Assembly (NCBI RefSeq): GCF_016863395.1
Contig: NZ_BOOU01000021.1
Coordinates: 1 to 54,923 of the forward strand
Source: Sphaerisporangium rufum
GTDB taxonomy: Bacteria; Actinomycetota; Actinomycetes; Streptosporangiales; Streptosporangiaceae
DNA: 54,923 bases
Reading direction: 5' to 3'
Part shown: positions 893-2,791 of the stretch, piece after piece
Layout of the letters: the number at the start of each line of letters is the position of its first letter
Position numbering within the stretch: the first letter of the stretch is position 1
Position numbers and translations under genes: made by a program
Notes under the pieces: model-generated
Told to the model about the DNA's origin: nothing
The model's input: only the letters and a program-made list of their open reading frames with translations
Databases searched by the model: none

Positions 893-983
893 TCTGTCCC
901 GGAGGCGGCCCCGCCGGGCCGGTGACGCGCCCGGGCGTCTCCGGCCGGGAGCAGACACGCCGGTCCGGATGATGAGATCGATG

Positions 984-1008
984 TGCCACATGGTGACCGG
1001 ATGTGGCA
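984..1008. promoter_or_regulatory. Inverted repeat, candidate operator between O-methyltransferase and cimA leader
   Basis: TGCCACAT, nine bases, ATGTGGCA: a perfect 8-bp dyad in the divergent upstream region, ending 14 bases before the leader-peptide ATG. Size and spacing fit a homodimeric repressor site. The binding protein is unknown. Confidence 0.45.
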
Positions 1009-1022
1009 GACTGCGGAGCACC

Positions 1023-1064
1023 ATGTTCTACGGTCTGCTCATTATCAGCAGGCGCGCTGGCTGA
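1023..1064 (+). CDS. Leader peptide of the cimA attenuator
   Basis: A 13-codon open frame, MFYGLLIISRRAG, begins with ATG 4 bases after GGAG (1015-1018). Codons 5-8 are CTG CTC ATT ATC, i.e. Leu-Leu-Ile-Ile in a row, rare by chance and typical of control codons in branched-chain attenuators. ATT is a rarely used codon in such a GC-rich genome. The stop lies inside a 10-bp hairpin, and a U-tract terminator follows at 1086. CimA makes the first dedicated intermediate of the threonine-independent isoleucine route, so control by charged tRNA-Ile/tRNA-Leu would make sense. Expression and regulation are inferred, not shown. Confidence 0.65.
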   Translation: MFYGLLIISRRAG

Positions 1065-1085
1065 ACCGGGACACCGCCAGCGCGC
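1052..1085 (+). promoter_or_regulatory. Leader hairpin in front of the cimA attenuator
   Basis: GCGCGCTGGC (1052-1061) and GCCAGCGCGC (1076-1085) are perfect complements with a 14-base loop. The 5' arm covers the last codons of the leader peptide, so a ribosome reading the leader would open it. It abuts the terminator stem at 1086 without overlap, so how the two would interact is not obvious. A smaller hairpin (CTGCT 1035-1039 with AGCAG 1047-1051) spans the control codons. Confidence 0.55.
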
Positions 1086-1116
1086 AGACCTCTCACGTCC
1101 GTGAGGGGTCTTTTTG
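1086..1116 (+). terminator. Intrinsic terminator (attenuator) upstream of cimA
   Basis: AGACCTCTCAC / GTGAGGGGTCT forms an 11-bp stem (one G-T pair) with a GTCC loop, followed by TTTTTG. A textbook U-tract terminator 80 bases before a start codon, behind a leader peptide, indicates premature termination control. Confidence 0.85.
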
Positions 1117-1192
1117 TTTGGGGGCCCGGCTCGCGGCCTCGGTGCGACAGGCGCGCGGCGACGAACGCCACCCCACTAGGAGACGAGAAACC

Positions 1193-2791
1193 ATGGCCGA
1201 CGACCGATTCCATGTGTACGACACGACCCTGCGGGACGGGGCGCAACAGGAGGGCCTGTCGCTCACCGTCGCCGACAAGCTCGCCGTCGCTCGGCACCTG
1301 GACGAGCTGGGCGTCGGCTTCATCGAGGGCGGCTGGCCCGGCGCCAACCCCAAGGACACCGAATTCTTCCGGCGGGCTCGGACCGAGCTCGACCTGAAGC
1401 ACGCGCAGCTCGCCGCGTTCGGCGCGACCCGCCGAGCCGGAGTGCAGGCCGCCGACGACCCATTGGTGGCCGCGCTGCGCGAGTCCGGCGCGCCGGTCGT
1501 GACCCTTGTCGCCAAGAGTCACGACCGGCACGTCGAGCTGGCCCTGCGGACGACGCTCCAGGAGAACCTGGCGATGATCCGCGACACCGTCTCCCATCTG
1601 CGGGCGGAGGGACAGCGGGTCTTCCTGGACGCCGAGCACTTCTTCGACGGCTACAAGTCCAACCCGGCCTACGCGCTGGAGGTGCTGCGCACCGCCGCCG
1701 AGGCGGGCGCGTCGGTGGTCGCGCTGTGCGACACCAACGGCGGCATGCTGCCCGACGAGCTCGCCGACGTCGTGCACGAGGCGGCCGGCACCGGGGCCCG
1801 GGTCGGCATCCACTGCCACGACGACACCGGCTGCGCGGTGGCCAACTCGCTGGCGGCGGTGCGGGCCGGCGCCACCCACGTGCAGGGCTGCGCCAACGGC
1901 TACGGCGAGCGGTCCGGCAACGCCAACCTGTTCACCGTGGTCGCCAACCTCCAGCTGAAGCGCGGCTTCGACCTGGTGCCGGACGCGGCGCTGGCCGAGA
2001 TGACCCGTATCGCGCACGCGATCACCGAGATCACCAACGTCACGCCCAACTCCCACCAGCCCTACGTCGGGGTCTCCGCCTTCGCCCACAAGGCCGGCCT
2101 GCACGCCAGCGCGATCAAGGTCGACCCCGACCTGTACCAGCACATCGACCCGGCCCAGGTCGGCAACGACATGCGGATGCTCGTCTCGGACATGGCCGGC
2201 CGCGCCTCGGTGGAGCTCAAGGGCCGGGAGCTCGGGTACGACCTGTCCGCCGAGCAGTCCCGCGAGCTGGTCGACCGGGTCAAGGACCTGGAGGCCAAGG
2301 GGCACACCTTCGAGGCGGCCGACGCCTCCTTCGAGCTGCTGCTGCGTGACACCGTCACCGGCGAACGGCCCCGGCACTTCACCGTGGAGTCGTGGCGGGT
2401 GATCGTCGAGCGGCCCGCCGGCGGCCAGGTGGTCAGCGAGGCCACCGTCAAGCTGTACGCCAAGGGTGAGCGCATCGTGGCCACCGGCGAGGGCAACGGC
2501 CCGGTGAACGCGCTGGACCGCGCCGTCCGGCTGGGGCTGGAACGGCTCTACCCCGAGCTCGCCTCGGTGGAGCTGACCGACTTCAAGGTCCGCATCCTGG
2601 AGGGCTCGCACGGCACCGGCGCGATCACCCGGGTGCTGATCACCTCCAGCGACGGGACCGGCGAGTGGGCCACCGTCGGGGTGGACGAGAACATCATCGA
2701 GGCCTCCTGGCAGGCCCTGGAGCAGGCGGTCACCTACGGCCTGCTGCGCGCCGGCCACACCCCCGACCGGGTGGCCGGCCCGTCCACCTGA
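1193..2791 (+). CDS. cimA: (R)-citramalate synthase
   Basis: Product of 532 residues. It condenses acetyl-CoA with pyruvate to give citramalate, entering isoleucine synthesis without threonine; LeuC/LeuD (encoded at 16-18 kb) then act on the product. The N-terminal HMGL-like TIM barrel shows DTTLRDGAQ (10-18) and the metal-binding GIHCHDDTG; the C-terminal third is a LeuA-type allosteric dimerisation domain (SWRVIVERPAG, then a conserved VNALDRAVR stretch). The early GGWPGANPKD matches the CimA branch of the family rather than 2-isopropylmalate synthase. Start ATG has AGGAGA 9 bases upstream; an in-frame upstream extension would read through the terminator and is rejected. Isoleucine is the expected feedback inhibitor. 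Confidence 0.92.
   Translation: MADDRFHVYDTTLRDGAQQEGLSLTVADKLAVARHLDELGVGFIEGGWPGANPKDTEFFRRARTELDLKHAQLAAFGATRRAGVQAADDPLVAALRESGAPVVTLVAKSHDRHVELALRTTLQENLAMIRDTVSHLRAEGQRVFLDAEHFFDGYKSNPAYALEVLRTAAEAGASVVALCDTNGGMLPDELADVVHEAAGTGARVGIHCHDDTGCAVANSLAAVRAGATHVQGCANGYGERSGNANLFTVVANLQLKRGFDLVPDAALAEMTRIAHAITEITNVTPNSHQPYVGVSAFAHKAGLHASAIKVDPDLYQHIDPAQVGNDMRMLVSDMAGRASVELKGRELGYDLSAEQSRELVDRVKDLEAKGHTFEAADASFELLLRDTVTGERPRHFTVESWRVIVERPAGGQVVSEATVKLYAKGERIVATGEGNGPVNALDRAVRLGLERLYPELASVELTDFKVRILEGSHGTGAITRVLITSSDGTGEWATVGVDENIIEASWQALEQAVTYGLLRAGHTPDRVAGPST

Follow-up and report, generated by a model that had tools for sequence, protein, structure and literature searches.

The window, by which we mean the whole 54,923-nt stretch of Sphaerisporangium rufum DNA that was analysed, carries a gene for citramalate synthase, cimA, preceded by a short open reading frame and two hairpins (Table 1). 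The Leu-Leu-Ile-Ile codons of this leader ORF lie at 1035-1046 by direct reading. The loop of hairpin 1 (1062-1075) contains the leader stop codon and the motif GGAC, and the loop of the terminator hairpin is GTCC (1097-1100). Counting one further A-U pair in the terminator helix places its foot at 1086, so that it follows the end of hairpin 1 at 1085 with a gap of 0 nt. The likely ribosome-binding site of cimA is AGGAG at 1178-1182.

Table 1. Features of the cimA leader region, in positions of the window.
Feature	Positions	Strand	Details
Candidate DNA-level operator, GTCYCG-N5-TGAGAYC-like box	963..979	.	GTCCGGATGATGAGATC; weaker copy, upstream of promoter
Extended -10-like promoter element	1002..1012	+	TGTGGCAGACT; hexamer 1007-1012
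Leader ORF, 13 codons	1023..1064	+	Peptide MFYGLLIISRRAG; ATG 1023, TGA 1062-1064; predicted (near-)leaderless
Leu codons CTG CTC	1035..1040	+	Lineage-specific
Control codons ATT ATC (Ile-Ile)	1041..1046	+	Conserved
Hairpin 1, 10 bp	1052..1085	+	Arms 1052-1061 (GCGCGCTGGC) and 1076-1085 (GCCAGCGCGC)
Intrinsic terminator hairpin, 11 bp	1086..1111	+	Arms 1086-1096 (AGACCTCTCAC) and 1101-1111 (GTGAGGGGTCT)
Terminator U-tract	1111..1119	+	TTTTTGTTT
cimA, citramalate synthase	1193..2791	+	532 aa; TIGR00977, 643 bits, cut-off 450

This terminator, which lies between the leader ORF and the gene, was the only one found by a pattern scan of both strands of 850-1250 (1 versus a mean of 0.1 in shuffled sequences), and the leader RNA (1020-1118) folds at -47.0 kcal/mol compared with -31.1 ± 3.3 kcal/mol after shuffling (z -4.8; 0 of 200 as low). 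Direct reading, terminator scan, fold energy and the RNA model described below all confirm the arrangement given in the initial annotation, a 13-codon leader and a 10-bp hairpin followed by a terminator before cimA. The long ORF upstream, an O-methyltransferase by eye, is encoded on the other strand, so the leader terminator does not end it. Three further pairings at the locus were set aside. Pairing of GGTCTGC (1032-1038) with GCAGACC (1084-1090), seen by eye, is lost in relatives such as L005 and L009. A 5' hairpin at 1005-1039, from the minimum-energy fold of 1005-1130, has a 5' arm that mostly precedes the predicted start of transcription. The fold of 1020-1118 also shows a small hairpin at the isoleucine codons (1035-1051), immediately next to hairpin 1, which was not established: it pairs better than shuffled letters do, yet shifting the register by -3 raises the score in both alignments.

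The start of the message was examined in 97 aligned cimA elements. Hexamers of the form YANNNT precede the leader start in 35, 28, 5, 3 and 13 elements at gaps of 6, 7, 8, 9 and 10 nt, respectively; each gap between 11 and 30 nt accounts for no more than 3. In 50 of the 97 there is an extended -10 pattern that ends 6-11 nt upstream, compared with 0 of 97 for two control ranges, and a -10-type pattern was found in 114 of 123 elements of the family. Because the choice of start codon took the distance from the -10 box partly into account, these peaks are inflated to that extent, and the argument for a leaderless message is partly circular. A sigma-70 consensus scan around the locus, which demands a -35 match, returned no promoter. 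With the -10 box 6-10 nt before the leader start, the leader looks as if it is translated from a leaderless or nearly leaderless mRNA; the gap of 10 nt in the window leads one to expect a transcript beginning about 3 nt before the ATG. Upstream of the leader start there is no enrichment of tetramers resembling a Shine-Dalgarno sequence (7 of 97, against 7 and 3 of 97 in control windows). From the usual spacing between -10 and +1, transcription should start at about 1019-1020, and the GGAG at 1015-1018 falls just upstream of this point. The Shine-Dalgarno sequence assigned to the leader by the initial annotation is therefore not borne out, and is probably promoter DNA rather than message.

Of 120 distinct upstream regions from the family, 88 have a box of the form TCYS-N4-9-SRGAY ahead of the promoter; in 50 shuffles the count averaged 7.8 and never exceeded 14. 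A similar box, TCTCGGATGGTGAGAC, lies upstream of ilvB in this genome (L200, 1239-1254), and the two boxes could possibly share an unnamed regulator. NdgR was considered as the owner of the box and rejected, since its printed motif (PMC4340878, which like all papers cited here by PMC number is represented by part of its text) does not match by eye. A genome search with the full palindrome gave 3 matches versus 1 for a reversed control; it was too strict, missing the boxes of both the window and ilvB, and so carries no information on a regulon.

Elements of the same layout are common upstream of cimA. A first homologue search listed the best 80 cimA loci, across phyla, and a crude script flagged the hairpin and terminator layout in 22 of these; L030, L035 and L044 were added by eye. 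The window and 22 cimA loci were aligned by sequence only, with no structure imposed, to give a seed of 23 sequences. Covariation of the two helices in this alignment was 0.337, compared with 0.139 in shuffled alignments and at most 0.088 in slid pairings, and 11 of the 20 pairs of the two helices were changed on both sides somewhere. In hairpin 1 such changes affect 7 of 10 pairs, both in the seed and in an alignment of 100 elements to the model, and the terminator helix covaries in both alignments as well.

A covariance model built from the seed, this site included, finds the cimA leader in its own genome with E = 4e-19, the only match at E ≤ 1. It matches 205 of 296 sampled genomes of the class and 185 of 200 genomes of the family; in a phylum-wide sample it matches 49 of 296, many of them weakly, and this last count does not extend to the genes downstream. 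cimA itself was detected at E ≤ 1e-100 in 236 of the 296 genomes of the class sample, a figure not paired genome by genome with the element matches, and some genomes (for example G006, G022, G026 and G045) have cimA with no listed element. The 100 elements aligned to the model come from loci already known or matched and measure specificity, not prevalence. In 97 of them cimA lies downstream on the same strand, with its match starting 16-222 nt past the element. Of the other three, two precede ilvB (L127 and L159), and one precedes a short ORF lacking a family match (L125). Leader and upstream letters are identical in the same-genus locus L213 and in Sphaerisporangium album (L003). Upstream of cimA in two Nitriliruptoria (L038 and L043) there are isoleucine codons (ATC ATT ATT and ATC GGC ATC ATT) and a possible hairpin; in the stretch tested the script detected no T-run terminator at either.

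In the translated leaders, methionine and several other residues are followed by one to four consecutive isoleucines, then usually by one more codon or a short tail, and by the stop. Isoleucine, the end product of the citramalate route, is encoded in all 97 cimA leaders, and 88 of the 97 have a run of two to four. Leucine is absent from 39 of the 97, and Leu-Leu-Ile-Ile occurs in only 13. The Leu-Leu pair is common to the window and relatives such as Nonomuraea, Planotetraspora and Sphaerisporangium, and is absent from the leaders seen in Thermobifida, Nocardioides and Acidimicrobiia (L012, L017, L044, L055, L074 and L075). The alignment of relatives proposed in the initial annotation thus yields a leader with isoleucine codons and covarying stems, while the leucine codons turn out to be lineage-specific. 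Likewise, of the Ile/Leu supply that it named as the signal, the isoleucine part is retained and the leucine part is not. The conservation of this small reading frame, whose control codons specify the amino acid that the pathway finally makes, strongly supports the earlier proposal that a translated leader attenuates cimA, and cimA is very probably under isoleucine-sensing attenuation.

The distances between the parts are nearly fixed. From the start of the last isoleucine codon to hairpin 1 the distance is 8 nt in 79 of 97 elements and 8-11 nt in 96; in the exception, L097, the leader (MRHSLIIIGWRVGI) ends in a further isoleucine within the hairpin, and the script counted from that one. The stop codon lies at -5 to -2 relative to hairpin 1 in 57 elements and at +7 to +16 in 40. 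The spacer between hairpin 1 and the terminator is 0 nt in 62 elements, 1 nt in 29, 2 nt in 3 and 4-5 nt in 3, and it is 0 or 1 nt in all 123 elements of the family (110 distinct). The looser spacers of 4-5 nt are those of the Acidimicrobiia L044, L074 and L075; a fourth element from this group, L055, has 0 nt. The abutment of hairpin 1052-1085 on the terminator, flagged as unusual when the locus was first annotated, is therefore a widespread layout (0-1 nt in 91 of 97).

Masking of hairpin 1 by the ribosome was computed with the front edge at A-site +12, counted from the first base of the A site, an assumed value for the ribosome footprint. On average, the fraction of the hairpin 1 5' arm that is masked is 0.13 with the ribosome at the first isoleucine, 0.46 at the last isoleucine and 0.98 at the stop codon (n = 97), where the arm is fully masked in 83 of 97. 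The same order holds with the edge at +9 and +15. The median length of single-stranded RNA between the ribosome edge and the terminator foot is 2 nt at the first isoleucine, 5 nt at the last and 13 nt at the stop; with hairpin 1 unfolded, the distance from the edge to the foot is 26-30 nt.

No conserved, mutually exclusive antiterminator of the trp or his type was found in three tests. Complementarity of the hairpin 1 3' arm to terminator arm 3 was 0.706 in native elements, 0.682 in shuffled and 0.71 in species-swapped ones (74 distinct). The hairpin 1 apex paired with terminator arm 4 at -9.85 kcal/mol natively versus -9.68 kcal/mol when swapped between species (96 distinct). When hairpin 1 was extended outward, it had no nucleotide in common with the terminator in 90 of 97 elements and a single one in 7. 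The textbook antiterminators thus gave no signal above species-swapped controls. In folds of the free RNA the terminator forms with a mean pair probability above 0.97 in all four ribosome states; a single element among the 100 drops below 0.5, and does so in a single state. The suggestion in the initial annotation that the switch may differ from the textbook one is borne out over the 97 elements.

The leader ORF, the conserved isoleucine codons, the -10-like box, the covarying helices, the fixed distances, the adjacency to cimA and the lack of a conserved antiterminator are observed features of these elements, to which the following model adds putative leader translation, a response to isoleucine and a steric block by the ribosome. 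The leaderless or nearly leaderless mRNA would be translated from its 5' end through the isoleucine codons, the last of which lies 8 nt before hairpin 1. When tRNA-Ile is charged, the ribosome would reach the stop codon, its front edge would cover the whole 5' arm and hairpin 1 would melt. The 11-16 nt of slack then left between ribosome and terminator would allow the terminator to close and transcription would stop. When tRNA-Ile is uncharged, the ribosome would wait on the isoleucine codons and hairpin 1 would fold ahead of it. Folded, and 0-1 nt from the terminator, hairpin 1 would use up nearly all of the slack, leaving the medians of 2-5 nt given above. The stalled ribosome, held against the terminator foot, would then form a steric bar to closing of the terminator in the RNA polymerase exit channel, and cimA would be read.

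That a ribosome-block attenuator of this kind sets cimA expression by isoleucine supply is the reading we prefer, with a probability of roughly 0.45. The argument for it runs as follows. A ribosome at the stop codon masks hairpin 1 and one stalled at isoleucine leaves much of it free, so hairpin 1 should act in the starved state. If so, read-through requires that the hairpin, or the ribosome behind it, hinder the terminator, and hairpin 1, at its fixed distance from the control codons and touching the terminator, would take up the slack and press the stalled ribosome against the terminator. Collided ribosome-polymerase complexes have been described, from modelling, as sterically incompatible with pause and termination hairpins (reviewed in PMC7858274). 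In M. tuberculosis ilvB1, alanine in place of the control codons is reported to abolish induction (PMC13236596). Several points count against the block. The terminator is thermodynamically favoured in every ribosome state, as noted above; a ribosome with the last isoleucine codon in its A site already masks about half of hairpin 1, which weakens it; and three of the four Acidimicrobiia elements have spacers of 4-5 nt. The assumed footprint, the partly circular case for a leaderless message and the lack of a promoter in the sigma-70 scan also weigh against it.

Hairpin 1 might instead act as the antiterminator by itself, barring the foot of the terminator from the RNA exit channel until a ribosome at the stop codon melts hairpin 1 and termination follows. 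The same adjacency and masking figures fit this explanation, and its logic runs in the direction proposed for M. tuberculosis ilvB1 (PMC13236596). It predicts read-through without translation, however, and removing the leader start codon of C. glutamicum ilvBNC is reported to reduce expression by 80% (PMC11857589), so that read-through there needs the ribosome. If transferable to cimA, this result favours the ribosome itself as the agent. Adjacent hairpins could also stack rather than clash, and an action of hairpin 1 alone appears improbable. We also consider unlikely the textbook scheme, in which hairpin 1, kept from folding by a stalled ribosome, releases its 3' arm or loop to pair with one arm of the terminator. 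An overlapping antiterminator has been proposed for Corynebacterium ilvB, with a loop-to-right-shoulder pairing in C. ulcerans (PMC10272879) and a 3-nt overlap in C. glutamicum (PMC11857589). In the cimA elements themselves, weak pairing of 3-5 bp between the hairpin 1 3' arm and the top of arm 3 occurs in many single folds, and apex pairing with arm 4 is slightly stronger than in the elements' own shuffles (-9.85 versus -9.14 kcal/mol, mean z -0.34). Both arm pairings are nevertheless no better than their species-swapped controls, the outward extension shares no nucleotide with the terminator in nearly all elements, and upstream pairing of arm 3 is the same with the ribosome at the last isoleucine (0.24), at the stop (0.26) or absent (0.24). 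The greater masking of arm 1 by the stop-codon ribosome than by the stalled one is the reverse of what the textbook scheme requires.

Hairpin 1 could also serve mainly to pause the polymerase while the ribosome catches up, with attenuation arising from timing. It lies just behind the place where the polymerase would pause, and such a function has been proposed for the H1 apex in C. glutamicum (PMC11857589). Pausing alone explains neither the contact between hairpin 1 and the terminator nor the frequent 8-nt distance from the last isoleucine codon, and as the main function we regard it as quite unlikely. A constitutive terminator, making a short RNA or insulating cimA, with an ORF of no regulatory function, is very improbable. 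It could claim the weak match to Atu_C8, a family filed as an sRNA (see below), and the S. coelicolor ilvB leader, in which changing the control codons is reported to have had no effect (PMC1262725, citing earlier work), a result that also stands against the ribosome-block mechanism. The conserved isoleucine codons and stop position, the near-exclusive link with cimA and the opposite orientation of the upstream ORF, which the terminator does not end, all argue against it.

Leaders of the same layout with other codons, found among weaker matches of the covariance model and by direct inspection, precede ilvB, leuA and leuS, and the gap between hairpin and terminator is 0-2 nt in all 14 that were folded. 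Leaders with valine, leucine and isoleucine codons lie before ten ilvB loci (L127, L130 and L159 identified by family search, seven by eye from N-terminal letters), and leucine leaders lie before leuA (L132) and leuS (L134 and L138). The ilvB gene of S. rufum has this layout by eye, with leader codons GTA GTA CTT. These observations, taken with the ribosome-block reading, make it possible, and we propose it tentatively, that Actinobacteria share a widespread attenuator design without an antiterminator, in which the position of the ribosome is read by slack, the hairpin is a retractable spacer, and the codons are retuned (Ile, Val/Leu or Leu) for cimA, ilvB, leuA and leuS.

Some further features of these elements were noted. 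By eye, leuA of S. rufum has a LEU-type leader, MLRGLLLLSCRGEGL (L201, 3358-3405, minus strand). Its codons GGT CTG CTG CTC CTT AGC resemble GGT CTG CTC ATT ATC AGC of the cimA leader, and the two leaders may share an origin. Genome G183 has a second isoleucine-rich leader, MFALVIIM, with hairpin and terminator (L125, 1501-1607, minus strand). The ORF at 1120-1443 on the minus strand of this locus encodes 107 aa that resemble, by eye, a small ACT-domain acetolactate synthase subunit; searches of Pfam and NCBIfam at the chosen cut-offs gave no match for it. Within the family, 87 of 100 distinct elements combine GGAC in the hairpin 1 loop with GUCC in the terminator loop (GGAC only in 3, GUCC only in 7, neither in 3), and the stem pairs next to GUCC covary (family alignment A3). 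This pattern is suggestive of a kissing contact limited to the family, and it is not counted as evidence here.

Among the closest known systems is the ilvB-II motif of Corynebacterium ilvBNC, which likewise has a leader ORF with branched-chain codons, a hairpin and a terminator, and whose transcription start in C. glutamicum is one nucleotide from the leader start codon (PMC11857589; PMC10272879). It differs in that it controls ilvB with mixed I/L/V codons, whereas the common codon of the cimA leaders is isoleucine, and in that its antiterminator overlaps or pairs with the terminator (loop to terminator), neither of which is conserved in the cimA elements. M. tuberculosis ilvB1 (PMC13236596) resembles the cimA leader in its control codons, a hairpin that a stop-codon ribosome can mask, and a terminator; the gene is another and the codons are LVVI, and the likeness is one of description, not sequence. 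The actinobacterial ilvB, leuS, leuA and trp leaders (PMC1262725) and eight S. lividans leader peptides (PMC8079986) belong to the same class of regulator, short and often leaderless. The LEU element, with a run of leucine codons before leuA and a pseudoknot whose base stem pairs these codons with the ribosome-binding site of the gene (PMC1262725), is another matter, given the many cimA leaders free of leucine and the different gene. cimA is not mentioned in the parts of PMC1262725 covered, and neither "citramalate" nor "cimA" occurs in the text of PMC8079986. Leader-peptide attenuation is well known; among the best matches listed in a literature search, none points to its occurrence at cimA by title or the start of the abstract, though the search covered few subscription papers and gives no proof of absence.

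Only tRNAs reach Rfam gathering scores in the window, with no match to a T-box or riboswitch. At E ≤ 10, region 850-1250 matches Atu_C8, nhaA-II (a cis-regulatory motif, on the other strand, E = 4.7), mir-5132 and RNAI. Atu_C8 (RF02502, Rhizobiales) matches weakly over its full length at 1019-1122, with 27.4 bits, below its gathering score of 50. In its printed consensus the codons ATG ATT ATT CTT GTG GTG come before a GCGC hairpin and then a terminator, a layout like that of the cimA leaders; it differs in its annotation as an sRNA and in the low score. By eye this consensus reads as a leader, ATG ATT ATT CTT GTG GTG GGC CCG, with the last valine codon about 8 nt before the hairpin. Atu_C8 may thus be an ilv-type attenuator and not an independent sRNA; a literature search on this family gave nothing relevant.

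With these results the gene for the step at which the citramalate route to isoleucine begins joins those that are likely to be attenuated across a bacterial class, under a sensor tuned to a single amino acid. They also yield a sizeable alignment of switches that show no textbook antiterminator. For some branched-chain leaders the mode of control was given as unknown in 2005, the attenuator parts being missing (PMC1262725). The old puzzle of how actinobacterial branched-chain leaders switch when parts of the attenuator seem to be missing now becomes testable.
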